Assembly: GCF_029589435.1 (NCBI RefSeq)
Contig: NZ_JARRAG010000001.1
Location: 1,602,808 to 1,666,807 of the forward strand
Length of the DNA: 64,000 bases
Source: Paludisphaera mucosa
Lineage (GTDB): Bacteria > Planctomycetota > Planctomycetia > Isosphaerales > Isosphaeraceae
Reading direction: 5' to 3'
The notes under the pieces were generated by a model. That model saw only the letters and a list, made by a program, of their open reading frames with translations. It was not told the DNA's origin and did no database searches. A program made the position numbers and the translations under genes. Positions 4,056 to 34,352 of the stretch are shown in pieces (within the stretch, counting starts at the first letter, position 1; every line of letters begins with the position of its first letter).

Positions 4056-5810
4056 TCAGGGCGTCGCTTCGGCGACCGGCACGGAGACCGCGCCCAGGAT
4101 CGTCTTGTCCAGGTCGTCCTGGACGAATGCCACGACGCTGAGGTCCTTGAGGGCGACAGCGGGCGGGGGAGCGTGGAAGGGCTGCTGCTTGGCGAAGTCG
4201 CTGACATATTCGTCGATCCGCTTGCGGACGTCGGCGAGATCAAGTTTGATCTCGACCTTCCCCTTACCGCCGACGATCGTAGCCCCCTCGGCGCCGCCCG
4301 GCAGGGCCCGCACGACGTGATGGTGGAACCGCAACTTGTTGCCGCCGACGTAGCGGATCGATTCCTCGGTGAGCGCCAACCGGAGCTTGATCGTCGAGGC
4401 GGCCTTGTCGCCGGCCTTCGGCTTCGCGGCGTCGGCCTTGGCCGCGTCCGAGGGTGCCGGCGTCGTCGCCTCGGCGAGGATGGCGATCTCGTCGCCCGTC
4501 CGCTTCGCCGAGACGGTCACGTCGGCCGTTCGCTTCTTCTCGAGCATCCCGTCGATGAGCCCGCGGTACTCGTTGTACTTATCCTCGGAGGCGGCCATCG
4601 GGCCGCCGCCGGGGGCCTCGGGGCGGCCGTTGAAGAAGGTCGAGGGTGTGCCGCGGACCTGGTCCCCGTAGTATTTCTGGCGAGCCTCCGAGTCGGGGTT
4701 CGTGAGCGGGTCGGGGCCTGGGACGTGCAGGTGGTACTGGAGGCCGATGAACTCGGTCGGCTTGTACGTTTTCAGCAGGGCGTCGAAAGCGACGTCGGCG
4801 GCGACGCAGGGGGGGCACTGCGCGCCGGTGAACAGCTCGAAGACGACGGTCTGGCCCGCGTCGGACTTCTTGCGGCCCTCGAACGGGGTGAACGAGAAGG
4901 GGGGGACCTTCTTCTGATACTCCTCGTCGAGCTGGGCGTCGAGCTTGGCGGCGCGGGCCTCGGCGTCGGCGGCGAGGTCCGCCTTGCCCGCGTTGCGGGC
5001 GGCGAAGGCGAGCAGGCCCGCGATCGCGTGCCGGTTTTCGGTCGTGACCTCGGGCGTCAGCGACTTTTCCAGCTCCTGGCCAAGCCGGAGCGCCGTGTCG
5101 GCATAAGTCTTTTGCGGGGCGATCAGCCCGAACGACCGGATGGCGATCTCCTGCGCCCAGGCCGGGCCGAACGGCTCGGCCTCGCTGCGCCATGCGGCGA
5201 TCAGTTTCTCGACCTCGGCGGACGGCAGTCCCGCGGCACCGGCGGCCCCGAGGATGCCCGTGTAGGCGAGCTGGCAGACGGGGGCGCCGGCGTTCTTGGC
5301 GAGGATCGCCTTGAACTTCTCGACCTGGGCCTTGGGGTCCTGCTCGTTGCGGGCCTTGAAGAAGTCCTGACCGATCGCGTTCGGCTTGGCCGCGCCCAGT
5401 TTCTCGTCGCGGGTCTTCTCCAGCTTGGCCGGGAAGATGTTGTTCTGCAGCTGGATCGTCCCGAGGACCTGGCCGGCATAGGGGCCGTTTTTGGCCAGGC
5501 CGCCGGCGAATTTCATCGTCATGGCCGGCCCCTTGACGGCGAAGGAGGCCCGATCGTCCTCGAGCTTGAGGTCCAGGACCTTGCCGCCTTCCAACAGTCC
5601 CTTCCGGCCGTCGACCAGGACGCCCTTCGCCTCGCCGTCCTGGCGGTGGAGGTCGACGATCGCGAAATCCTCGTCGCCGAACGCCAGGACGACCAGTTTC
5701 CAGATCCCCGCCGGCTCGGCCGCCGCAGCGGGCGCGGCCAAAAACGCCGCAAGGCAGAGGCCGGCCGTCGCGCGGGCGAGCCAGGATCTCGACGAGTGGA
5801 CTCGAATCAT
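4056..5810 (-). CDS. Exported thioredoxin-like protein
   Basis: 584 residues with a clear signal peptide (AAFLAAPAAAAEP, cleavage near residue 32). An N-terminal beta-rich region of about 100 residues is followed by an alpha-helical region (about 130-300) and then a thioredoxin-like domain with FTGAQCPPC near residue 330, giving a CPPC active-site pair, and a later cis-proline-type motif (RGTPSTFFNG). A C-terminal beta domain follows. The likely role is thiol-disulfide exchange or sensing in the periplasm. The single-copy gene stands alone, with about 290 bp of AT-richer non-coding DNA upstream of the preceding gene. The substrate is unknown. Confidence 0.8.
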   Translation of the reverse strand: MIRVHSSRSWLARATAGLCLAAFLAAPAAAAEPAGIWKLVVLAFGDEDFAIVDLHRQDGEAKGVLVDGRKGLLEGGKVLDLKLEDDRASFAVKGPAMTMKFAGGLAKNGPYAGQVLGTIQLQNNIFPAKLEKTRDEKLGAAKPNAIGQDFFKARNEQDPKAQVEKFKAILAKNAGAPVCQLAYTGILGAAGAAGLPSAEVEKLIAAWRSEAEPFGPAWAQEIAIRSFGLIAPQKTYADTALRLGQELEKSLTPEVTTENRHAIAGLLAFAARNAGKADLAADAEARAAKLDAQLDEEYQKKVPPFSFTPFEGRKKSDAGQTVVFELFTGAQCPPCVAADVAFDALLKTYKPTEFIGLQYHLHVPGPDPLTNPDSEARQKYYGDQVRGTPSTFFNGRPEAPGGGPMAASEDKYNEYRGLIDGMLEKKRTADVTVSAKRTGDEIAILAEATTPAPSDAAKADAAKPKAGDKAASTIKLRLALTEESIRYVGGNKLRFHHHVVRALPGGAEGATIVGGKGKVEIKLDLADVRKRIDEYVSDFAKQQPFHAPPPAVALKDLSVVAFVQDDLDKTILGAVSVPVAEATP

Positions 5811-5926
5811 GTGTGGGCCTCGACAGGAGAAGAGGGCGCGGGTGGAAGGCGTCTCGTGGGCCTTCAGTGTACCGCCGTACCAACCCGCGCCACAACCGCC
5901 TGAAGAGGCCCGAGGAACGGTCGGGC

Positions 5927-6688
5927 TCAGCCCTCGCCGAGGAAGCGGCCGCCGTCGACCCGGTAGCAGACCCCCGTGACGAAGTTCGTCCCATCGAGCA
6001 AGTAGGCGATCAGCCGATTGACGTCGTCGGGCGAGCCGAGCCGCCGCAGGGGGGTGGCGTCGATCACGGCCTGCTTGTCGTCGTCGTTGAAATCGGGCGG
6101 GGGCTCGATCATCGCCGGCTGGATCGTCGCGACCGGGATGTAAGGGGCGAGCTCGACGGCCAGGGCCATCGCCAGCGTCGTCATCCCGCCCTTGGCGGCG
6201 AGGTAGGGCAGGTAGTCCTTGTGGGGCCGTTCGGTCGCCCAGTCGCCCAGGAAGACGATCTTGCCCTTGATGCCGTCGACCGCGGTCTGGTCCGACATCC
6301 GCCGCGCGGCGGCGATCGCTGCGTGGTAAGGGGCCGCGAGGTTGGCGGCGATCATGGCCTCGAAGTCGGACGGCTTGAGTTCGGCGAGCGGGGTCTTCTT
6401 GTAGACGCTCGCCATGTTGACGAGGGCGTCGATCCGGCCGAAGCGGCGGATCGTCGCTTCGACGGCCTCATCGGCCTGAGCAGGATCGGTCAGGTCGGCG
6501 GCGACGGCCAGGCCCTCGGAGCCGGCGGCCTCGACGGCGGCGACGGCGCGCTCGATCGCCTCGCGGCTCTCGCGATAGGTCATGGCGACCCGCCAGCCGC
6601 TGGCGGCGAGTTGCTTCGCCAACACCGAGCCCACGCGACGACCGCCGGTGATCAGCACGACTTTACCGGGGTTATCCACGGCCGTCAT
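5927..6688 (-). CDS. Short-chain dehydrogenase/reductase, pteridine-reductase-like
   Basis: 253 residues. The Rossmann start LITGGRRVG binds NAD(P)H; NMAS takes the place of the NNAG motif; the catalytic YxxxK is present (YLAAK). The catalytic serine position reads IVFLGDWATERP, so an aspartate sits where most SDRs have serine; FolM and PTR1 pteridine reductases share this change and also have an Arg in the glycine-rich loop. The substrate could be a pterin, but this is inferred. The start overlaps the stop of the upstream adenosyltransferase gene by 4 bases (ATGA), so the two are co-translated. Confidence 0.85.
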   Translation of the reverse strand: MTAVDNPGKVVLITGGRRVGSVLAKQLAASGWRVAMTYRESREAIERAVAAVEAAGSEGLAVAADLTDPAQADEAVEATIRRFGRIDALVNMASVYKKTPLAELKPSDFEAMIAANLAAPYHAAIAAARRMSDQTAVDGIKGKIVFLGDWATERPHKDYLPYLAAKGGMTTLAMALAVELAPYIPVATIQPAMIEPPPDFNDDDKQAVIDATPLRRLGSPDDVNRLIAYLLDGTNFVTGVCYRVDGGRFLGEG

Positions 6689-7236
6689 TTCTTGGAGATC
6701 CAGGGCACGTCTGCGACGCCCGCGTGATGGTTGACGGTCCGCGCCATGACGAACAGCAGGTCGCTGAGCCGGTTGAGGTAGATCAAGAGGGTCGACGGCA
6801 CATCTTCTTCGGGCAGGTGGGCCAGGTGCACGACCAGGCGTTCGGCCCGTCGGCAGATCGTCCGGGCCAGGTGGAGCTGCGCCGCGGCCGGCGACCCGCC
6901 CGGCAGGATGAAGGTCCGCATCGGGGCCAGTTCGGCGGTGAAGTCGTCGATGGCCCGTTCCAGGTTCTCGACGTGCTCGTCCGAGATCTTGTTGTGGAAG
7001 GGCCCCTGCGGGTCGGGATCGGCCAGGGCCGCGCCGAGGGTGAACAGCTCGTCCTGCACCCGCGCGGCCACGTCGTCCTCGGTCGACTCCATGACCAACG
7101 CGCGGGCGAAGCCGATCGCCGCGTTCAGCTCGTCGACCGTGCCGTAAACCTCGATCCGGGCGTCGTCCTTGCGGAGCCGCTTGCTCCCCAGGATGCCCGT
7201 CGTGCCCTCGTCGCCCGTCTTGGTGTAGATCTTCAC
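6685..7236 (-). CDS. Cob(I)yrinic acid a,c-diamide adenosyltransferase, PduO type
   Basis: 183 residues, the usual length for PduO-type ATP:corrinoid adenosyltransferases, which form adenosylcobalamin from reduced cobalamin and ATP. The N-terminal ATP-binding motif KIYTKTGDEGTTG, the VYGTVDELNAAIG segment and the C-terminal RRAERLVVHL and YLNRLSDLLFVMAR motifs are all present. The start is GTG. It is the first gene of a two-gene unit with the SDR downstream. No cobalamin riboswitch is evident upstream. Confidence 0.93.
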   Translation of the reverse strand: MKIYTKTGDEGTTGILGSKRLRKDDARIEVYGTVDELNAAIGFARALVMESTEDDVAARVQDELFTLGAALADPDPQGPFHNKISDEHVENLERAIDDFTAELAPMRTFILPGGSPAAAQLHLARTICRRAERLVVHLAHLPEEDVPSTLLIYLNRLSDLLFVMARTVNHHAGVADVPWISKK

Positions 7237-7330
7237 GTCTGCGATGCCTCAACCCCGATGGCGTGCCCGATCGTCGGCCCCTATACTAGGCGATCCACCT
7301 GAACGAAGGAAGATCCGGAGGCTCGAACTG

Positions 7331-23814: not shown

Positions 23815-26800
23815 TCACTCTCGCGTCGGCGGGCCCGTCTCGACCGGCGCGTCCTCGGCGTTGCCCCACTCCGACCAGCCGAGATAGTAGTTGCGGGTCG
23901 GGAAGCCGAGCCTTTCCAGCACGAAGGCGTCGACCGACGCCCGTCCGCCCCCCTGGCAATGCGAGACGACGGCATCGCCTTCCTTGACGCCGCCGGCCTT
24001 GAGCTTCTCGCGGAGGGCGTCGGGCGCGAGGAACCGCCCGTCGGCGTCGACGAGCCGCGTCCACTCGACCGGGCAGGCCCCGGGGATGCGTCCGCCGCGC
24101 TTCGACAGGACCTTCTCGCCGGTATGCTCGGCCTCGCTGCGGGCGTCGACGACCCGGGCCGATCCCGACTTCAAGACCTCGGCCACGTCCTCGCGAGTCG
24201 CCAACCGGTCTTTCCTGAAGGCGACCGAGAATGAGGACGGGGCCGGTTTCGCGGCCTCGCCCATCGTGGGCCGCGACTCGCGCTCCCAGAGCTGGTAGCC
24301 TCCGTCGATGAGCGCGACGCGAGGCACGCCGAGGTAGCTGAGCAGCCACCACAGCCGCGCGGCGTCGAGCTGACGCTCGGCGTCGTAGACGACCACTTGT
24401 GCGTTCGGGGCGATCGCCAGGTCGGCGATCCAGGCTTCCCAGGCCCGGGCGTCCTGGAGGCCGCCGGGCGCGGCGGCGAGGGCCTCGGCCTTCTTGACGT
24501 CCACCCAGACCGCGCCGGGGATGTGCGCCTTGTCGTAGTCGGCCTTCGGGCGAGCGTCGAGGATCCGCAGGGCCGGATCGTTCAGGCGGGCCTGGAGGGC
24601 GTCGAACGGCAGGAGATTGGCGGCGCCCTGGGGAGTTTTCTCCGATCCCGGCGCGATCAAACTCCGGGCCCGTTCGGCGGATTGGGTCTGGGCCGGGTCG
24701 ACGAGGATCTTGCGGGCTTCCGCATCGAGCGCGTCGGGCCGGATGCGGCCGGACGCGAGGGCCTCGACCAGGGCCTCGCGGCGGTCGGCCTCGCGAGTCA
24801 AGGCCTGCACGGCGAACTTGCGATTGTCGGGCGTGAGCCGGTCCAGGGCCTCCAGCAAGGGGGCGACGATCCGCGCCGACGACACGTCGGCCAGGGCGGA
24901 GACGGCCCCCTGATGAAGCTCGGGATCGAGTCCATTCGCGAGATAGCGGGCGAGGTGCTCGCCGTGCCGATCCCAGGGCTCGGCACCCAGCATCCGCAGT
25001 GCGTCGTAGCGGGTCCCTGTGCGGACCGAGGCGTCGTCGGCCATCTTCGAAGCGAGGGCGATCGACCGATCCCAGCGGGCTTTCAGCGCCGGGGCGTCCT
25101 TGAGGATCGTCTCGAACCTCGGCCCGGGGAGCGGGCCCGACAGGCTGACGCCGTTGATCAGGCCGCCGCCGAGCACCACCGCCCGCCAGTCGTCGAGCTT
25201 CGCGTCGGGGGAATCGGCCGGAAGGGCGACTTCGAGGATTCTCTTCAGTTCGTCGCCGTCGTCGCGTTTGCCGGCGGCGATTGCGACCCGCCAGATCCAG
25301 GGGATGCGGCGATACTGCTCGGCCTCGTCGGCGTGGTCGAGCCCGTCGGCCAGGGCGGCGATCAGCGGGGCCGACTGGCCGGAGAGGCGATCGATGAACG
25401 CCTGACGATCGCCGTCGGCCGTGGCGGGGTCGAGGATCGTGCGGGCGACGTCCACGGGCTTTGTGGGCTCGGCCGCCTGGGCTGGGTTGACGTCGCCGGC
25501 CTCGCCGGGGGTCAGGATGATGGCGCGAACGTCGGCGAGGGCGCCGTGCATCGGGCCTTCGGGGCGAAGATCGATCCGGTGGACGCCCTTGTGGAAGACC
25601 TGGTTGGCGATCGAGGCCCGGACGTAGCGGCCCCAGCCGCCGGTCCCCGGCACGACGCCGCGGATCGTCTGGCCGCCGAGCTTGAGCATGTAGGCGTTGC
25701 CCGCCGAGCCGTCGTCGCAGGCCCATTCGAGGGCCACGTTGAACATGGCTCCGTGGTCGACCTCGAAGGTCCAGCCGGCGTGGTCGGCGGCGGCGTGCCA
25801 GTAGCCGAGGTTGCCGTGCTCGGTCTCGAAGAGGAGGTTGGGGCCGAAGATCTCGGCGTCGGCCGCGATCAACCGGATCACGCCGTCGGGGCCGGCCTTG
25901 ACGACCTCGGGCCGGTTCCCCTCCTGGACCTTGGGGCGGGAAGCGCCCTGGGACAGGTAGGCGACGACGTCGGCGACGTCGGTCGGCTTCAGGTCGTTTT
26001 CCAGGCCCTCGGGCATGAGCGAACGGCCCGACGAGGCGATCTCCTCCAGGTCGTCGCGGAGGACGACGTCGGCCGCGCCCTCCTGCCGCTTCAGGGTGAT
26101 CGCGCTGGCGGTCTCGTTGGCGATCAGGCCGGAGAGGGTTCGGCCGTCCTTGAGGGCGGCGTTGTAGCTGACGTAGCGGGCGTCGACCTCGCGGTTGGGG
26201 TCGAGGATCGCGGTCAACAGCGCGTCGGCCGAGAGGTCGGTGAGGGCGGCCAGGTCGGGGCCGACCTCCGCGCCGAAGCCGTCGAGCTTGTGACAGGCGG
26301 CGCAGGCTCGCTGGAACGCGGCCTTGCCTCGGGCGGGGTCCCCGTGCGAGGTCTTCACCGAATCGTAGGCGGCGAGGACCTCGCGACGCGCGCCGATCGT
26401 CAGCGCGCCGAAGGCCGCCTGCGCCCGCTTGCGGAGCGGCTCGGTGCCCGACCGCAGGAGCCGTTCGCGGTGCTCGGCACCGACCTGCGAGGACGCGACG
26501 CGGCCGGCTTCGAGCGCGCCGATGAGTGCCGTCTCCGACGCCTCGCGGGAGATCAGGGCGTCGAGCGCGGCCGCCCGGGCGGCGGGCCCGAGGCGGGCCC
26601 AGCGGTCGAGGATCGCCTCGGCCGCCGCGGCGTCGCCGAGTCGCGACAGGGCGCCGAGGGCGGCGGACTGGACGTCGCCCGGCTCGGCCGGGTCGAGGAG
26701 CCCGGCGATCGCCGCACGATCGGCTTCGCGCGACGCCTCGGTCCGGCCGAGCAGCCGGAGCGCAGCGACCCGCTCGTCGCCGGGGGCCTCGGCGTCGACG

Positions 26801-29800
26801 GCCTTCCGCCTCGCGGCGACCATGAGGGGGAGGACGGCACGGTCGGCCGCGAGGGCCTCGTCCCCGGCGGCGTCGAGCAGTTCGGCGACCGCGCCGAGCC
26901 GCCACCGGGCGGGCTCGGCGTCGCCGGACGCGATCAGCGCCAGGGCCGCCGCGACCGACGTCCGATCGCGCGTCCCGGCGATCGTCGCGATCAGCGGCTC
27001 GACCATGTCGGAGGCGGGGCCGTCGGGCCCGGCAGCGGCGATCAGGCGCTCCAGGACCGCGCGGGCGTGGGGCGTCGCCGAGCTGAGGACGGCGGCCCGG
27101 AGCCATTCGTCGCCGCCGTCGCGAGCCGCGATCGCGCCCAGCGCCCGGCCGGCCTCGGGCGCGGGCCAGGCGCCCAGGCTCAACGCGGTCTGATAGCGAA
27201 CCCGGACGTCGGCGTCGTCGGCCCGTTCGATGACCTTGAGGCCGATGGAGGTGTTCCGGGCCAACCTGGGCTCGGCGATCCGGACGGCCTCCCGGCGCAC
27301 GCCTTGGTGCTCGTCGTCGAGCGCGGCGGCGAGCACCTCGTCGTCGAGATCGCCCGCGACGTCGAGCGCGGCGAGGGCCTGCGCGCGGGCCGCGGGAGTA
27401 TGGCTCCCGCGCGCGATCGCGGCGAGGATCGGCTTCGCCGCGCGGTCGCGGCGGTGGTCGAGCAGGCGCTGGACGGTGTCGCGCACGGTCCCGTTTGGGG
27501 TGTCGAGCGCGGCGGCGAGGCGGGCCGTGGGCATCGCTTCGAGGTTCTCGACCGGTCGAATCGGTCGGCCTTCGGGGACGATGCGGTAGATCCGGCCCTT
27601 ATCGGCACCGGCGCGGACGTCGAGCGTCGCCAGCCGCTCGGGGCTGATCCAGCGCGGGTGTTCGATGACGAATCGATACATGTCGACGACCCACAGCGCC
27701 CCGTCGAGCCCGGTCCGCACCTGGACGGGCCGGAACCACGAGTCGGTCGAGGCCAGGAACTCGCGGTCCTGCTCATCCGCGGCTCGACGGCCCGTGAACG
27801 TGACGCCCTCGGGCTCGAGCACCACGCGGCGGACCAGGTTGTGGACCGACTCGCAGGCGAAGCCGTCGCCGAAGTATTCGTCGCCAAGCAGCGGGTCGCG
27901 GTGGACGAGCGGACTGCTCGCGCTCGTGACGCGGTTGGCGTTCTGCGGCTCGTTGTAGCGGATCAGGGTGTGGCTGGCCGGGAAGAGCTTGCCCGGGTCG
28001 GCGTCGCCCCGGGGGACGACGGCCGGCGGCGGGGCGGAGACGCGGGGATTGCGTCGCACGTCGTGGTCGGCGAGCGGGTAATGCTGGATCAGGATGCTGT
28101 TGTTGCCGCCGAACTGGTTCCCCCAGTCGTCGTGGACGCGGCCTTGCTGGGTGATTCCCGAGGCCGGTTCGAAGACCCCGAGGTCCGGCTTGAAGCGGAA
28201 GTCGCGGCTCCCCAGGTCGACCTCGCGGCCGTCGGCACGGCCGTGGATCTTGCCTCCGATCAGGCCGTTGGCCCCGTAGACCCAGCCGTCGGCGGCGTAG
28301 GCCAGGCCGTTCACGCGCGCCTGGTAGTTGTCGGTCGCGAAGCCCTCGTACAGCGTCCTGCGGACGTCGGCCTTGCCGTCGCCGTCGGAGTCCTCGGCGT
28401 AGAGGATCTGGGGTGCGGCGCAGATCAACACTCCTTTGCGCCAGCACATCAGGCCGGTCGGGAAGGGAAGGTCCTCGATGAACGTGGCGGCGGTCTCGTA
28501 GCGGCCGTCGCGGTCGCGGTCTTCGAGGACGCGGACCCGGCCGCCGGGCTTGTACTTGCCGTCCATTCCCGAGGGATAGTCGCGCATCTCGCAGACCCAG
28601 AGCTTGCCGTCGGCGCCGAAGTCGACGGCGACCGGACTCTCGATCAGGGGCTCGGCGGCGACCAGCTCGACCTTCAGGCCGGGCTTGGTGTGGAAGGTCT
28701 GGAGGGCCTCCGCGGGCGTCAGGGCCGGCGGGTTCTCCTCGTCGACCTTCGCCGCGACCTTCGCCCTGGTGGGCTCGAATCCGGCTCCGGCGACGCGGTG
28801 GACGGCGTCGAGGATGAGCTTCTCGACGCCGGTCTTGAGTCGCGTCGGCCGGGCGTAGTAGGTCATCGCCTCGCCCCCCTCGTAACCCCCCTCGCTGAGG
28901 ATGCGCTCGGACGGGATGTAGCAGGGGACGTCGTTGGCGTAGGCCGTGACCCAGGTGCGCGACGGGTCGAATTCCTTCTTGATCCTCAGCACGTAGTCGA
29001 CCACGACTTCGCCGGGGAGGAAGACCATGAGCAGGTCGTCGCCGAACCGCCAGGCCTGGGCCGAGTAGGGCAGGGCGGCCGGCAGCTTGCCGTCGCGGTC
29101 GATCTGGGCGAGTTGCAGCGTGGCGAAGTGGCCCCGCGGGCCGCCGGCGGCGACGAGCTTCTCCAGCTCGGCGCGGGTCGGCAGGGTGTCGTAGGGCAGG
29201 TCGAAGCGCTCCATCGCGGCCTGGGGCGGGCCGGCCACCGGCTTCCATTCGCCGCGCATCAGGCGGGCGACCTCGTCGGCGAGGGCGCGGCCGTGAGACT
29301 CGGCGTCGGCCGACTTGCGGCGCGGGTTGGGGTTCGAATCGGCCCCGCAGCCGACGACCGTCAGGGCGATGCAGCCGGGGTTGTCGGCCTCGATGCCGCG
29401 CTGGGCCGCCCCCGCCCAGTCGCCGTCGACGAGGTTGTCGGCGGGGTCGAGGGTCGTGCAGTGGCAGGCGTAGTTGGCGACGATCGCCCGGATTTTCCCG
29501 TCCGGTCCGGTCGCCCGCAGGACGGGCAGGCTGTGGTCGACGGGGCCGCCGGGCGTCCTGCGGTTGGCCGCGAAGCCGACCTTCCCCTGCGCCCACGAGA
29601 GCGTCGCCGGCTTGCGGTCGGCGAGGGCTTCCAGGCAGACGCGTTCGATCTTGTCGACGAACTCGCGGGTGTAGGCGTCGATCTTCGCCTGCTGGTCGGC
29701 GGCGATCGGCTTGCCGAAGATGTTGGGGAGGACCCCCGTCAGCAGCGGCGCCGAGTGCGTGTGCGACGCCCCCAGGGCCAGCCGTTCGCGGGGCAGACCG

Positions 29801-30123
29801 ACCTTGCGCTCGAGTCGCTCGGCGATCTCGCCGACGATCGCGTCGGAGACGCCGACGTTGTCGACCGAGACCAGGATGACCGGCTTCTGGTCGTCCGAGC
29901 CGATCGCGAGCGCCTTGGCGTAGATCGGGTGGCCGATCCCCTTCGACTCGGTCGTCCGGGCCAGATAGCCGCTGAGCCGGATCGGCCCCGACGGCGAGAC
30001 GTCGACGCGCGCGACGCCGACGGCGACCTCCTCGGCGCGGCCTGCCCCGGCAGCCGCGGCGAGCGTCAGCCCGAGGCCGACGCAGGCCGCCGTCCGGATC
30101 GTCATCCTTCGAATGCCTCTCAT
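23815..30123 (-). CDS. 2102-residue exported fusion: ceramidase-like + dehydrogenase propeller + cytochrome c + CBM-like + tandem rhodanese
   Basis: A signal peptide ends near GAGRA (residue 30). Domains in order follow. About 31-450 is a neutral/alkaline ceramidase-like hydrolase (GASHTHSAP and YACHC hold metal-site histidines). About 465-850 is a planctomycete membrane-bound dehydrogenase propeller (DGKLWVCEMRDYP, GLMCWRKGV). About 855-1230 is HEAT-type repeats. About 1255-1395 is a cytochrome c domain with CAACH near 1272-1276 and a later Met (SLMPEG). About 1412-1537 is a CBM6-like module. A second helical-repeat region follows. Two rhodanese domains lie at about 1835-2100, with the catalytic Cys near 2055 (VVSHCQGGG) only in the second, as in sulfurtransferases. 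The ATG overlaps the stop of the upstream lipoprotein gene (ATGA). It probably combines hydrolysis and oxidation of an extracellular substrate with sulfur transfer. No stop or frameshift interrupts it. Confidence 0.85.
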   Translation of the reverse strand: MRGIRRMTIRTAACVGLGLTLAAAAGAGRAEEVAVGVARVDVSPSGPIRLSGYLARTTESKGIGHPIYAKALAIGSDDQKPVILVSVDNVGVSDAIVGEIAERLERKVGLPRERLALGASHTHSAPLLTGVLPNIFGKPIAADQQAKIDAYTREFVDKIERVCLEALADRKPATLSWAQGKVGFAANRRTPGGPVDHSLPVLRATGPDGKIRAIVANYACHCTTLDPADNLVDGDWAGAAQRGIEADNPGCIALTVVGCGADSNPNPRRKSADAESHGRALADEVARLMRGEWKPVAGPPQAAMERFDLPYDTLPTRAELEKLVAAGGPRGHFATLQLAQIDRDGKLPAALPYSAQAWRFGDDLLMVFLPGEVVVDYVLRIKKEFDPSRTWVTAYANDVPCYIPSERILSEGGYEGGEAMTYYARPTRLKTGVEKLILDAVHRVAGAGFEPTRAKVAAKVDEENPPALTPAEALQTFHTKPGLKVELVAAEPLIESPVAVDFGADGKLWVCEMRDYPSGMDGKYKPGGRVRVLEDRDRDGRYETAATFIEDLPFPTGLMCWRKGVLICAAPQILYAEDSDGDGKADVRRTLYEGFATDNYQARVNGLAYAADGWVYGANGLIGGKIHGRADGREVDLGSRDFRFKPDLGVFEPASGITQQGRVHDDWGNQFGGNNSILIQHYPLADHDVRRNPRVSAPPPAVVPRGDADPGKLFPASHTLIRYNEPQNANRVTSASSPLVHRDPLLGDEYFGDGFACESVHNLVRRVVLEPEGVTFTGRRAADEQDREFLASTDSWFRPVQVRTGLDGALWVVDMYRFVIEHPRWISPERLATLDVRAGADKGRIYRIVPEGRPIRPVENLEAMPTARLAAALDTPNGTVRDTVQRLLDHRRDRAAKPILAAIARGSHTPAARAQALAALDVAGDLDDEVLAAALDDEHQGVRREAVRIAEPRLARNTSIGLKVIERADDADVRVRYQTALSLGAWPAPEAGRALGAIAARDGGDEWLRAAVLSSATPHARAVLERLIAAAGPDGPASDMVEPLIATIAGTRDRTSVAAALALIASGDAEPARWRLGAVAELLDAAGDEALAADRAVLPLMVAARRKAVDAEAPGDERVAALRLLGRTEASREADRAAIAGLLDPAEPGDVQSAALGALSRLGDAAAAEAILDRWARLGPAARAAALDALISREASETALIGALEAGRVASSQVGAEHRERLLRSGTEPLRKRAQAAFGALTIGARREVLAAYDSVKTSHGDPARGKAAFQRACAACHKLDGFGAEVGPDLAALTDLSADALLTAILDPNREVDARYVSYNAALKDGRTLSGLIANETASAITLKRQEGAADVVLRDDLEEIASSGRSLMPEGLENDLKPTDVADVVAYLSQGASRPKVQEGNRPEVVKAGPDGVIRLIAADAEIFGPNLLFETEHGNLGYWHAAADHAGWTFEVDHGAMFNVALEWACDDGSAGNAYMLKLGGQTIRGVVPGTGGWGRYVRASIANQVFHKGVHRIDLRPEGPMHGALADVRAIILTPGEAGDVNPAQAAEPTKPVDVARTILDPATADGDRQAFIDRLSGQSAPLIAALADGLDHADEAEQYRRIPWIWRVAIAAGKRDDGDELKRILEVALPADSPDAKLDDWRAVVLGGGLINGVSLSGPLPGPRFETILKDAPALKARWDRSIALASKMADDASVRTGTRYDALRMLGAEPWDRHGEHLARYLANGLDPELHQGAVSALADVSSARIVAPLLEALDRLTPDNRKFAVQALTREADRREALVEALASGRIRPDALDAEARKILVDPAQTQSAERARSLIAPGSEKTPQGAANLLPFDALQARLNDPALRILDARPKADYDKAHIPGAVWVDVKKAEALAAAPGGLQDARAWEAWIADLAIAPNAQVVVYDAERQLDAARLWWLLSYLGVPRVALIDGGYQLWERESRPTMGEAAKPAPSSFSVAFRKDRLATREDVAEVLKSGSARVVDARSEAEHTGEKVLSKRGGRIPGACPVEWTRLVDADGRFLAPDALREKLKAGGVKEGDAVVSHCQGGGRASVDAFVLERLGFPTRNYYLGWSEWGNAEDAPVETGPPTRE

Positions 30124-30572
30124 CGCACCTGGCCTTTCGAGCGCTTCGAGACGTCGACCTTGGGGAAGTCGAAGGTGAAGGCGTTGGGCCCGCCCGCCTT
30201 GACCTCGGCGTCGATCGGGCCGCCGATGACGGTCTTCGAAGGCTTCGTCTTGGGTTGCAGGGAGAAATTGTTCAGCTTGTCCTCCTCGGGCCGCTCCACC
30301 GCCTCGGTGACGGACACCTGATACTTGCCGGGGGGCGGGCCGTCCGCCCGGGCGACCTCGAAGGCGCCTTCGGCGACCTCGCCGCCGGCCTCCGTCCCGC
30401 CGCCCGCGGGCCGGAAGAGGATCGACCCCTTCGCGAGGGGCTGGCCCTCGATGGTCACTTTACCCGAGACGGGCTCGCGGGGAAGCAGGTCGCCGGTTTC
30501 GCCGCAGCCGGCGAGCGCCAGGGCCAGGCCGGCGGCGGCCATCGGGCCGGCGGGGAAGAATCGTCGTGTCAT
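30120..30572 (-). CDS. Small lipoprotein, carboxypeptidase-regulatory-like
   Basis: 150 residues. Lipobox LALAGC near residue 23 after a hydrophobic signal; the mature part starts with PVSGKVTIEGQPLAKGSILFRP, the usual opening of small Ig-like/transthyretin-like planctomycete lipoproteins that sit behind DUF1559 genes. It is translationally coupled to the giant gene downstream and separated from the DUF1559 gene by a hairpin. It should be outer-surface or periplasm anchored. The binding partner is unknown. Confidence 0.85.
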   Translation of the reverse strand: MTRRFFPAGPMAAAGLALALAGCGETGDLLPREPVSGKVTIEGQPLAKGSILFRPAGGGTEAGGEVAEGAFEVARADGPPPGKYQVSVTEAVERPEEDKLNNFSLQPKTKPSKTVIGGPIDAEVKAGGPNAFTFDFPKVDVSKRSKGQVR

Positions 30573-30642: not shown

Positions 30643-31656
30643 TTACAGGGAGTCGGCGCTGACGATCTCGCCGCCCTGGGTGCTGCTTATCGACGACCAG
30701 GTGTTCAACCCGATCGAGTCCTTCACGAACCGGACGCTGCCGTCGCACATCGACACGTTCACGCCGCCGGCGTGCTTGCTGCGGGCCGCCGTGTACCAGG
30801 TGACGTCGGCCGTGGTGCAGGGCGGGTTGACGCCCCCCTTGGGCGAGTTGCACAGGCCCGGCCAGATGACGTCGGGCGAGCGGCTGTTGGGGGCGGTCCA
30901 GGCGGTGAAGGTGCCCAGCGGCCCGCACCACGAGAACCCGCGGAGGTCGAGCTGCCCCCCCTGCGTCTGGCCGACCAACTGTTCCGAGAGCATCATCGTG
31001 TTGCTCAGGCCGTCGGTGATCGAGGCGAAGGAATAGCACGTGTTGGGTACGCCCGAAATCTCGCGGTCGCGATAGCCGTCGATGTCCACGAAGGGCGAAC
31101 CAATGCAGGTGAACGGGGCCCCCTTGAACGTGACCCCGTCGAGGGTCCGCTGCTGCATCATCGTGTTGCCGAAGTTCACGACGTAGTTCTGCGAGGTCAC
31201 CATCAGCGTCTGGCCGTTGACCGTGATGCCGATCCCGCTCAGCGACGCGTTGTTGGGATCGCTCGGGCACATGAAGCCGGAGATCCGCGCGGAGGTCACC
31301 GTGATGTTGCAGGCCCCGTTGTAACGCAAGGGACCGTCGACGGTCCCCGGCAGGCCCGAGTTGTTCCCCTGGTAATTCCAGGCGTTGAACGAGCTCATCT
31401 GTTCGATATACGGCAGCAGGCACACCATCCAGCTCCCCCACGCGTCGCCCTTCTTGCCCGGGGACAGCGAGTTGAGGGCGGACTGATAGTTGTGGACGGC
31501 CAGCCCGATCTGCTTGAGGTTGTTGACGCACTGCGAACGCCGGGCGGCCTCGCGGGCCGATTGCACGGCGGGCAGCAGCAGGGCGATCAGCACGGCGATG
31601 ATCGCGATCACCACCAGCAACTCGATCAGCGTGAAGCCGGGACGTCGGCGCGACAT
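30643..31656 (-). CDS. DUF1559 protein with type IV prepilin-like N-terminus
   Basis: 337 residues. The N-terminus [21 protein letters not shown] is a class III prepilin signal: cleavage follows G before FTLIE. The family-typical [19 protein letters not shown] follows, and the C-terminus contains H-x9-DG ([13 protein letters not shown]). DUF1559 proteins are multiplied in planctomycetes and probably form pseudopilin-like surface structures. The start at 31656 fits the prepilin leader and has a GAGG site upstream. It is the first gene of the unit leading to the giant enzyme. Confidence 0.95.
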
Positions 31657-31790
31657 GGGCGATCCTCTTCTGGAGACCGGTCGAATGATCGGGCAAGGGG
31701 GTTGTGGGACGGGCGAGGACGCGCGAGAGGCGCGAACGGCCTGCGCGTCCGGCGGAGAGAGGGGACCCGCCGAGCTTATCCCACACTGAT

Positions 31791-31804
31791 ACATCGCGCG
31801 ATGT
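31791..31804. promoter_or_regulatory. Perfect 14-bp palindrome upstream of DUF1559 gene
   Basis: ACATCGCGCGATGT lies 135 bp upstream of the DUF1559 start and 52 bp after the stop of the ECF sigma gene. CACAC and GTGTG at 31782 and 31803 extend its symmetry partly. It could be an operator or a rho-independent-like signal; no regulator can be assigned. Confidence 0.35.
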
Positions 31805-31855: not shown

Positions 31856-32515
31856 TCAGGCGTTGCGAGGATCGTCGGCCGCGTCGGGGGTGCCCGCCGG
31901 CTCGCCCAGGACCTCCTTGAGCCGCCGCAGGACGCGCGACTTGGACTGACGGACGGCGGCCGGGCTGACGCCCAGCTCGTCGGCGATCGTCGCGGGCGCG
32001 TGGCCCTCGACGGCGGCCCGCCAGAAGGCGTGCCAGGTCCGCTCCTCGAACTCGATGCGCACCGTCTCGAGCGCGTCGCGATAGAGATCGCCGATCAGCG
32101 ACCGCTCCTCGTCGTCGCAGGCCTCGACCGCCGGCGCGGGGAGGAGCAGGGTGCGCTCGTAGAAGTCGGTCCCCCCCGGCCCCCGCGCGTCGCCGCGACG
32201 CAGGAGCGTCAGGACCTTGTGCCGCGCGACGCCGTGCAGCCAGCCCCGGAACGAGCCGTCCTCGCGGTCGCGGCGGAAGCCTTCGAGGCTCACCGCCACC
32301 GCCTGGAAGACGTCCTGAGCTACGTCGTCGAGGTCCTCGGGGCGCACGCCCCAACGGCGGAACCAATGTCGCAGGAGGGGCGTGTACAGGCCGACGAGGC
32401 GGCCCCAGGCGTCGCCGTCGCGGGTCTTCACGCGCTCCAGGAGCGTGAGCGAAGTCTCGCCCGCCTCAGCGCCGGAGGTGGACGACCGGGGTCGCACGGC
32501 GATCGGTCGCTCCAT
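31856..32515 (-). CDS. ECF-type RNA polymerase sigma factor
   Basis: 219 residues from ATG 32515. Region 2 is clear ([47 protein letters not shown]). Region 4 follows ([19 protein letters not shown] then [17 protein letters not shown]). This is the planctomycete ECF type that is usually paired with a protein kinase, and such a kinase is encoded divergently 151 bp away. It reads in the same direction as the DUF1559-lipoprotein-fusion operon 200 bp downstream and is the obvious candidate to control it. Confidence 0.92.
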
Positions 32516-32666
32516 GGCTGACGTCCTCGACAGGTGCGGCTCGGACGGCCCTTCAAGGGGGAGCGGGGTCAAGGCGCGTTCGCGCGGCGAGTTCGTCGCG
32601 TTACGATACGGCGGACGGGCCGCGTGCAAGGAGGGGAAGAGCCGCCGCGTCGTCGAGGTCATCGTA

Positions 32667-34352
32667 ATGGAGCCGACAGTGCCGTCGCAAGTTCGATCCG
32701 ACGCCTGCCCCGACGATGCGATCCTCCGCGCCTTCATGCTCGGCGACCTGCCCGAGGCCGCGATCGACGCCGTCCGTCGCCACCAAGAGGCTTGCCCCGC
32801 CTGCGAGACCCGGGCTCAGGCGCTCGACCAGCGCACCGACCCCGTCCTCGACGAGCTGAGGCGATCGATCGCGACGGCGTCCCGCCCCCGGCCTGAATCC
32901 GGCTCGGCCCCGGAACGCATCGCCGGCCCGCCGGTCCTCCCCGATTACGAAATCGACGACCCGCCGATCGGCGTCGGCAGCACCGGGCTGATCTACAAGG
33001 CCCGGCATCTTAAACTCGGCCGCGTGGTGGCGCTCAAGATGATCGCCGGCCGCCCGGACGTGGTCTCGCGGCTTTTCGAGATGGAGGCCAAGGCGTTCGC
33101 GCAGCTCCAGCATCCCAACATCGTCCAGATCTACGATATCGGCCGGCACGGCGAGCACCCATTCCTGGCGCTGGAATTCGTGGACGGCGGGTCGCTCGAA
33201 CAGCGGATGGCCGCCGGACCTCAGCCTCCGCGAGCCGTGGTGGAGTTCATCCGCACGGTGGCCCTGGCCGTCCATCACGCCCACCGCCAGGGGATCGTGC
33301 ACTGCGACCTGAAGCCGGCGAACATCCTCATCACGCGCGAGGGCGCGCCCAAGATCGCCGACTTCGGCGTCGCCAAGTGGAACGAATCCGATCGCTATTG
33401 GGGCGTCGAGGGCGGGACGCGCGGGACGCCGCGGTACATGGCCCCCGAACAGGCGGGCGGCGGCGGCGAGGTCGGGCCCGCGACCGACGTCTACAGCCTG
33501 GGCGTCATCCTCTACGAATGGCTCGCCGGCCGCGTCCCGCATCCCGCGGCCTCGGCCGTTGAGACGTTGAGGATGGTCCGCGAAGACGCCCCCCCGCCGC
33601 CGAGCTGCGTCCGACCCGGCCTGCCGCGCGACCTGGACGTGATCATCCTCAAGTGCCTTCGCAAGCCGCCGTCCGGACGCTACCCGGACGCCCGCGAACT
33701 GGCCGACGACCTCGGGCGGTTCCTCGCCGGCGAGCCGATCCAGGCCCGTCCGGCCGGGGTCCTCGAGCGGACGTGGAGGCTGGCGAAAAGGCGGCCGGCC
33801 GCGGCGCTTTTGGCCGTGCTGACGATTGCGGCAGTCCTTCGGCTCGCGACCCGTCCCCATCCGTCGCCGCCCGCGATCGTGCACACGGCCCCCGCGACCG
33901 AGGCCAGGGCTTTCCGGGAGATGGTCGGCCCGCCGATCCCCAGGGCGATCATCCAGGAGGACGGCTCGATCCGGCTGGGGGCGTCGGCGGCGTCGCTCTC
34001 GGGCCGCTCGCTTCGGTTCGAGCACTCGTTCGGCAACCTGGGATACTGGCACGGCCGCGAGGACGTCGCCTCGTGGACCTTCCACGTCGCCGAGGAGGCG
34101 ACCTACTCGCTCGCCCTCGATTACGCCAATCGCAACGGCGGGGCCGGCAACCGCTACGAGGTCCGGCTCGACGGCCGGACGTTCGTCGGCGAGGCGCACG
34201 GGACCGACGGTTGGTCCGACTACCGGAGCTTCCCCGTCGGCGAGTCGCCCCTCGCCGCCGGCGTCCACTCGATCGAGGTCCGCCCCAGGGAGCCGCTCCG
34301 CGGCGCGCTCTTCGACCTTCGCGCCATCACGCTGGCGCCCGTCGACCCCTAG
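32667..34352 (+). CDS. Transmembrane Ser/Thr protein kinase with zinc finger and extracytoplasmic CBM-like domain
   Basis: 561 residues. The N-terminus has an anti-sigma type zinc finger pattern, C14 and H39-x3-C43-x2-C46. The kinase domain (about 92-355) has a Gly loop IGVGSTG, VALKMI with the ATP lysine near 123, DFG Asp232 and MAPEQ. The catalytic loop reads HCDLKPAN (212-219), so the HRD arginine is Cys. One membrane segment is at about 377-395. The outer domain (432-561) is homologous to the CBM-like module of the giant protein. The finger may hold the divergent ECF sigma factor, the kinase releasing it on ligand binding; this is inference. The stop shares CTAG with convergent lgt. Confidence 0.9.
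   Translation: MEPTVPSQVRSDACPDDAILRAFMLGDLPEAAIDAVRRHQEACPACETRAQALDQRTDPVLDELRRSIATASRPRPESGSAPERIAGPPVLPDYEIDDPPIGVGSTGLIYKARHLKLGRVVALKMIAGRPDVVSRLFEMEAKAFAQLQHPNIVQIYDIGRHGEHPFLALEFVDGGSLEQRMAAGPQPPRAVVEFIRTVALAVHHAHRQGIVHCDLKPANILITREGAPKIADFGVAKWNESDRYWGVEGGTRGTPRYMAPEQAGGGGEVGPATDVYSLGVILYEWLAGRVPHPAASAVETLRMVREDAPPPPSCVRPGLPRDLDVIILKCLRKPPSGRYPDARELADDLGRFLAGEPIQARPAGVLERTWRLAKRRPAAALLAVLTIAAVLRLATRPHPSPPAIVHTAPATEARAFREMVGPPIPRAIIQEDGSIRLGASAASLSGRSLRFEHSFGNLGYWHGREDVASWTFHVAEEATYSLALDYANRNGGAGNRYEVRLDGRTFVGEAHGTDGWSDYRSFPVGESPLAAGVHSIEVRPREPLRGALFDLRAITLAPVDP

Follow-up and report, generated by a model that had tools for sequence, protein, structure and literature searches.

Does a single planctomycete gene encode a chain that joins a ceramidase-like domain, a dehydrogenase, a cytochrome c and a rhodanese, which of these joinings is unusual, and what could such a protein do? 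The question is raised by a 64,000-nucleotide window of the Paludisphaera mucosa genome (contig NZ_JARRAG010000001.1, positions 1,602,808 to 1,666,807 of the forward strand; coordinates below are those of the window), in which one minus-strand frame at 23815..30123 encodes a predicted protein of 2102 amino acids (aa). We compared this genome (G000) with five other Paludisphaera genomes (G001–G005) and with wider sets of planctomycete genomes. The fusion is real and rare, and its novelty is a C-terminal tandem rhodanese placed in frame on an otherwise ordinary planctomycete architecture.

Seven modules in one frame

Module borders were taken from BLAST and profile matches. The gene and its parts, all on the minus strand, are as follows.

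23815..30123, minus strand: whole fusion gene, 2102 aa, with ATG at 30123 and the stop ending at 23815; Pfam and NCBIfam matches, same architecture in G005
30031..30123, minus strand: putative N-terminal signal peptide, about residues 1–31, judged by eye from the sequence
28756..30036, minus strand: CER, zinc domain of the neutral-ceramidase fold, residues 30–456; Pfam, profile, model fold and alignment
27559..28731, minus strand: PRO, DUF7133/TIGR02604 propeller, residues 465–855; Pfam, NCBIfam and the fold of the model, that of a pyrroloquinoline quinone (PQQ) sugar dehydrogenase
26374..27546, minus strand: HEAT-repeat spacer, residues 860–1250; Pfam (HEAT_2, under its cut-off), profile and model
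25939..26352, minus strand: CYT, cytochrome c of TIGR02603, residues 1258–1395; CAACH at 1274–1278 and distal Met1370
25489..25902, minus strand: carbohydrate-binding module (CBM) like CBM6/35, residues 1408–1545; profile and fold matches
24649..25476, minus strand: HEL, second HEAT-like helical module, residues 1550–1825; homology, and a separate gene in some Isosphaeraceae
24613..24648, minus strand: fusion junction and short linker, residues 1826–1837; site of the stop codon in unfused orthologues
23830..24612, minus strand: RHO, tandem rhodanese, residues 1838–2098; Pfam and profile match, active loop CQGGGR at 2056–2061

In the full protein, Pfam detected Ceramidase_alk at residues 35–247 (44.1 bits, cut-off 32.1; only positions 3–229 of the 509 in the profile were covered), DUF7133 at 470–851 (462.6 bits), Cytochrom_C at 1264–1392 and Rhodanese as two stretches (98.9 bits); HEAT_2 scored under its cut-off. 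The NCBIfam models TIGR02604 (257.1 bits, cut-off 122.2) and TIGR02603 (129.1 bits, cut-off 68.15) were both passed, and the 3-mercaptopyruvate sulfurtransferase model was matched over its full length with a score under the cut-off. These matches, with the profile and fold results given below, bear out the original prediction, made from the letters of the window, that ceramidase-like, dehydrogenase, cytochrome c, CBM-like and rhodanese modules share one 2102-residue frame. Its single N-terminal signal peptide was likewise seen, as one signal-like start judged by eye, and no transmembrane stretch turned up in a simple hydropathy scan of the protein.

Frame length alone proves little, because the other strand of this GC-rich DNA likewise has an open frame, of 1974 aa (24397–30321, plus strand); this high-GC effect warns against relying on open length. 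The frame is real because its modules have homology support. The independent genome G005 carries the identical seven-module order in a single frame, with 74% identity over residues 12–2100, which argues against an assembly artefact, and codon-position GC and constraint were similar on either side of the RHO junction. An assembly error joining several genes, which the original prediction had named among the things that would refute it, was ruled out by the two genomes with the same frame and the same downstream gene order, so that the probability of an assembly or frame error joining neighbouring genes is now negligible. The fusion is one retained event.

A common core with a rare rhodanese

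Of the 59 genomes searched with the full protein, 57 had matches at E ≤ 1e-100. Among the matches listed, a single match ran from residue 36 or earlier to residue 1390 or later in at least 26 of the 59 genomes, which belong to six families. We read 88 loci, 51 of them drawn from a named genome collection, and the 88 represent 82 distinct places; they were chosen by similarity to the query and some were truncated by contig ends, so the counts over these 82 are not frequencies. CER and PRO lay in one frame at 61 of them, CER-PRO-HEAT-CYT at 58, this core plus the CBM-like module at 24, and the core with both the CBM-like module and HEL at 18, or 17 without L044, where HEL only cross-matched the HEAT region. 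The core was in one frame with RHO at two. The idea that the ceramidase-like hydrolase and the dehydrogenase-HEAT-cytochrome c unit are normally separate proteins therefore fails, and a 'unique fusion of normally separate genes' was rejected for the first six modules, of which CER, PRO, HEAT and CYT share a frame at most loci read. The first six modules represent a form, widespread in planctomycetes, of the 'PVC-type heme-binding' CxxCH proteins (TIGR02604/DUF7133 plus TIGR02603), which show the same order of propeller, HEAT and cytochrome c and, at the 61 loci just mentioned, a ceramidase-like domain in the same frame. Many planctomycetes also have the CBM-like and second HEAT-like modules in this protein. 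What sets the present protein apart from them is the tandem rhodanese, which it had in common only with G005 among the loci read.

With HEL plus RHO as query, we searched 45 Isosphaeraceae genomes and then 397 genomes of the class, scoring the three best candidates per genome. Matches across both modules occurred in G000 and G005 only, among the 45 as among the 397; the addition of the rhodanese is as unusual as had been supposed. The 112 other rows listed in the 397-genome search comprised 58 HEL matches, 45 of them in frames of at least 1600 aa, and 54 RHO matches, all in frames of at most 1187 aa from stop to stop. As to the longer RHO frames, the 928-aa frame of G059 is an ordinary gene preceded by open sequence, and the G004 copy is a 322-aa frame in a separate search.

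Homologs with stops at the module borders had been held to speak against a single gene. Such stops were present at the HEL/RHO border in all four other Paludisphaera and at the CBM/HEL border in four further genomes (G014, G025, G031 and G035), but the borders from CER through PRO and HEAT to CYT were without them at the 58 loci with this core in one frame. In the same four genomes the core stops after the CBM-like module and HEL is a separate gene (L151–L154; frames of 313–413 aa), with a signal-like start in G031 and G014. Because HEL too is separate in these four Isosphaeraceae, the C-terminal end must have gained or shed parts on more than one occasion.

In the titles and abstract openings found in the open-licence PMC literature, this architecture is undescribed. 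A report on P. borealis gives 26 genes over 5 kb (PMC5352709), and the words ceramid-, rhodanese and cytochrome are absent from its main text.

Several relatives of the core were noted. The present genome alone has 42 places matching the query, some of them pieces of a single gene. Separate, adjacent ceramidase-like and propeller-cytochrome genes lie at G000:C2:3684681-3689207, and a core paralogue running from CER to the CBM-like module with 54% identity (L002, G000:C4:14825-19402) lies on a small contig of 120,636 bases, perhaps a plasmid. The propeller-HEAT-cytochrome chassis also occurs with other front ends (L025, L028, L081, L082 and L068), among them LamG plus a ceramidase-like domain, above the Pfam cut-off, and, more weakly, a polysaccharide-deacetylase-like domain plus FG-GAP, with the deacetylase under its cut-off. 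At L084 the order is permuted, a distant ceramidase-like match standing after the cytochrome c rather than before it.

Junction, descent and constraint

The unfused Paludisphaera proteins end a few residues past the motif SAxRAxRxL (AAERARRIL in G002); the fused proteins continue past it through the short linker into RHO. Downstream gene order is alike in five of the six Paludisphaera, G002 being rearranged there, and only G000 and G005 have RHO between the old 3' end and a convergent methyltransferase gene. The fused rhodaneses form one clade with support of 100/100 (100/99 in a second tree). The species tree did not settle the order among G000, G005 and G004, so a later loss in G004 is possible.

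Pairwise ratios of nonsynonymous to synonymous substitution rates (dN/dS; G000 against G005, NG86) were 0.20 for CER, 0.13 for PRO, 0.22 for HEAT, 0.12 for CYT, 0.21 for the CBM-like module and 0.22 for HEL. The value for RHO was 0.154, against 0.117–0.224 in the other modules. RHO is under purifying selection like the rest of the protein.

Rhodanese copies outside this protein were 52–61% identical to RHO in all four unfused Paludisphaera; besides the fused RHO, G000 and G005 have only copies of 35–36% identity. Because these two genomes have no close separate copy, the fused RHO probably does the job of the separate rhodanese. In G001, G003 and G004 the latter stands alone as a gene whose start, by eye, is signal-like. 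Of 28 separate rhodanese loci scanned, four yielded no frame and one an incorrect frame; 21 of the remaining 23 had the loop CQxGGRA, the others being L113 (CQSGARA) and the distant L118 (CNGGVAA). A 600-aa frame in another genome (L156, G394:C1118) holds two consecutive tandem rhodaneses, of which the second has CQGGGR and the first, by eye, has no loop Cys.

In G002, a related rhodanese lies in frame with an exported GxDLY/GDSL hydrolase (L137, positions 5052-7259; G002:C1:280051-282258). The joined frame of 736 aa has one signal-like start and matches GxDLY (162.1 bits), Lipase_GDSL_3 (214.8 bits) and then rhodanese (89.8 bits). The same hydrolase occurs in the other five Paludisphaera at 67–72% identity, with no rhodanese match in the same hit. 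Within the genus, this rhodanese has been attached to an exported hydrolase for a second time, independently of the first. In this assembly the frame shifts just past the CQG of the active loop and the remainder lies in another frame; the product may be broken or a base call wrong. The joining can be read either way, as a rhodanese that is repeatedly useful on exported hydrolases or as a mobile passenger.

Folds and motifs of the modules

A structure model of CER (predicted local distance difference test, pLDDT, 95.2) resembled neutral ceramidase 2zws with Z 38.9 and a root-mean-square deviation (rmsd) of 3.9 over 395 aligned residues, and Foldseek matched it to 2zxc at 6.6e-26. The model thus points to the catalytic-domain fold of neutral ceramidase (2zws, 4wgk), with the same zinc ligands, the aligned part stopping near residue 488 of 2zws. 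H121, H123, H221, E372 and Y402 were invariant, and H121, H221, E372 and Y402 were kept in 57 of 57 aligned rows. They were aligned by profile with the residues of 2zws that we take to bind zinc; the second stretch, with the Glu and Tyr, scored only 4.2 bits. Unlike neutral ceramidase, CER lacks the Ser of GDVSPN, presumably the nucleophile, and has ADSNPN at 261–266 in its place. Among 77 ceramidase-like frames, a GDxSP-like string was found in only two, and these two have the Asn motif as well; in ten distant ones (at most 31% identity) a pattern search saw neither the Asn nor a Ser motif.

For PRO, a 1086-residue model from PRO to the CBM-like module (pLDDT 89.5) gave weak Foldseek E-values (best 1.2e-06), so the propeller call rests on a second-look fold comparison. 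There the PQQ-dependent sugar dehydrogenase 3a9g was matched with Z 25.3 and rmsd 3.3 over 285 aligned residues, and all ten top rows were PQQ or sugar dehydrogenases. As modelled, PRO has the six-bladed fold of PQQ sugar dehydrogenases, and it may use PQQ.

In CYT, the CxxCH motif and the distal Met were invariant in 60 of 60 rows. The diheme cytochrome Kustd1711 (7zs0) was matched by a profile of residues 462–1547 (1.8e-24) and by Foldseek; the distal Met aligned with the MP of Kustd1711, and the titles of entries 7zs1 and 7zs2 name M292 mutants. The CBM-like module of this protein had no Pfam match of its own. Its profile matched 8zvk (4.3e-12) and the CBM35 2vzp (1.2e-05), the latter also by fold. 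At E ≤ 1, CBM_35 was matched by 16 and CBM_6 by 14 of 32 members, the window's copy matching neither. HEL gave HEAT-type or weak matches only against the PDB and NCBIfam.

RHO consists of two rhodanese domains with the catalytic Cys in the second half (Cys2056 of CQGGGR). Its best solved relative by profile was 1e0c (E 2.5e-40), a RhdA-type tandem rhodanese that we take to be of Azotobacter origin. Both halves aligned, over 7–259 of the RHO query, with the Cys loop in the second half. The loop differs (CQGGGR in RHO, CQTHHR in 1e0c), and RHO, unlike 1e0c, is joined to an exported oxidoreductase.

A proposed role and its alternatives

We propose, with a probability of about 0.55, that the protein is an exported, glycan-docked hydrolase and sugar dehydrogenase with a built-in cytochrome c and an appended sulfurtransferase. 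The CBM6/35-like module would dock the enzyme on a glycan. CER would then cut an acyl, amide or related bond and so remove a group, and PRO, with PQQ or another cofactor, would oxidise the exposed product, probably a sugar. Electrons could exit to an acceptor through the His/Met cytochrome c, with the HEAT-like modules as scaffolds. In the ancestry of G000 and G005, one fusion brought the coding part of an exported tandem rhodanese, minus the signal peptide, to the old 3' end. There it might add sulfur transfer to the other activities, such as the handling of persulfide or thiosulfate or the removal of cyanide next to the heme, and co-location may bring a benefit. A sulfated polysaccharide or sulfolipid had been suggested as substrate, and this analysis gave no pointer to either.

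A precedent is CcPDH of Coprinopsis cinerea (AA8 cytochrome b, AA12 PQQ propeller and CBM1), in which electrons pass from the PQQ domain to the enzyme's own heme b (PMC6881789). Both proteins have a six-bladed propeller of the sugar-dehydrogenase fold, a cytochrome and a CBM on one secreted chain. The present protein differs in having cytochrome c for b, a CBM6/35-like module for CBM1, and additional zinc-domain, HEAT and rhodanese modules; the likeness rests on the fold, not on PQQ residues.

Several observations weigh against this proposal, and some of them favour other explanations. The full-length chain is a product predicted from the gene sequence. In 12 stretches around the separate rhodanese, no neighbour linked it to this enzyme; apart from the rhodanese gene itself and the frames that overlap it, no feature recurred in more than 3 of the 12. 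A clade of all six Paludisphaera rhodaneses was weakly rejected (approximately unbiased test, p-AU 0.038), so the fused RHO may stem from a different lineage of Isosphaeraceae or from an earlier duplication. At the place of the presumed nucleophile, with the register set by eye, the 57 rows have Asn (54), Asp (2) or Gly (1); because the Ser is replaced, hydrolysis by CER is not assured. The same replacement makes it improbable that CER is a true neutral ceramidase acting on sphingolipids, for all its full catalytic-domain fold and invariant zinc ligands, since GDVSPN is the ceramidase motif (PMC5874051). A propeller that does no redox work, being instead of a hydrolytic or binding type like diisopropyl fluorophosphatase (DFPase)/SMP30 or Hedgehog-interacting protein (HHIP), with the cytochrome c serving another partner, is a tentative alternative to a dehydrogenase. 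Close behind the ten dehydrogenases come HHIP at Z 21.8 and the DFPase types at about 21.5 (21.6 and below), so the fold alone is no proof of redox work, and the sequence profile of PRO gave no useful match in the PDB and none to any PQQ enzyme. Only four PRO columns are mostly His (46, 41, 32 and 49 of 53 rows), and none of them, by eye and without a sequence match, lies at the place of the catalytic His (His144 of soluble glucose dehydrogenase). The searches for PQQ-synthesis genes gave 0 of 21 for PqqE above cut-off and 0 of 21 for PqqC, the latter uninformative because its controls also gave 0 of 14. Against a non-redox propeller stand the ten top rows themselves and the cytochrome that follows the propeller in the same chain, as in the fungal quinohemoprotein CcPDH (PMC6881789).

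RHO might instead be a passenger, from a chance fusion no better than a separate protein, or might also be made alone from an internal start; we regard this as possible but doubtful. The rhodanese sits on this protein in just the two class genomes, the linker is short with an in-frame TTG near the junction, and the same rhodanese on an unrelated hydrolase in G002 suggests that the partner may not matter. On the other side, RHO is constrained like the rest of the protein, and an internal-start product would have no signal peptide, which the separate copies appear to have.

The fusion is a natural label: it suggests that the exported rhodanese which many Isosphaeraceae possess cooperates with the large 'PVC heme-binding' enzymes, for which the literature searched gave no stated substrates. 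A conserved ceramidase fold that has lost its Ser points to a family with testable chemistry. Closer cooperation of RHO and CYT, in which sulfane sulfur on Cys2056 would be oxidised via the propeller's heme, and in which group removal from a glycan or glycolipid, sugar oxidation and sulfur oxidation would be coupled on one exported chain, is a long shot. Were it true, the G002 joining would mean that exported hydrolases of the genus repeatedly recruit this rhodanese, and the coupled chain would include a zinc enzyme that has a ceramidase fold but not the Ser and is widespread among Planctomycetes and Verrucomicrobia.

Upstream genes

Four genes lie upstream of the fusion.

30120..30572, minus strand: small gene sharing 4 bases with the start of the fusion gene; its own start resembles that of a lipoprotein by eye, and it has no Pfam match
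30643..31794, minus strand: DUF1559/N_methyl pseudopilin-like gene; domain matches
31856..32737, minus strand: sigma factor of the extracytoplasmic function (ECF) type (Sigma70_r2); domain match
32382..34352, plus strand: protein kinase gene, divergent, with a CBM-like domain at the C-terminus of its product; the real start probably lies further inside

No consensus promoters were found, and terminators were no more frequent than by chance. The upstream set was not found in G005 within the 7.5 kb read upstream; it is retained in G001, G002 and G003, and in G004 as far as the contig extends. The kinase has one predicted transmembrane stretch, and its CBM-like domain shares 42% identity with the enzyme's own. 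A natural guess is that the kinase, with the sigma factor, is a sugar-binding sensor that would read the sugar bound by the enzyme and maybe switch the enzyme on.

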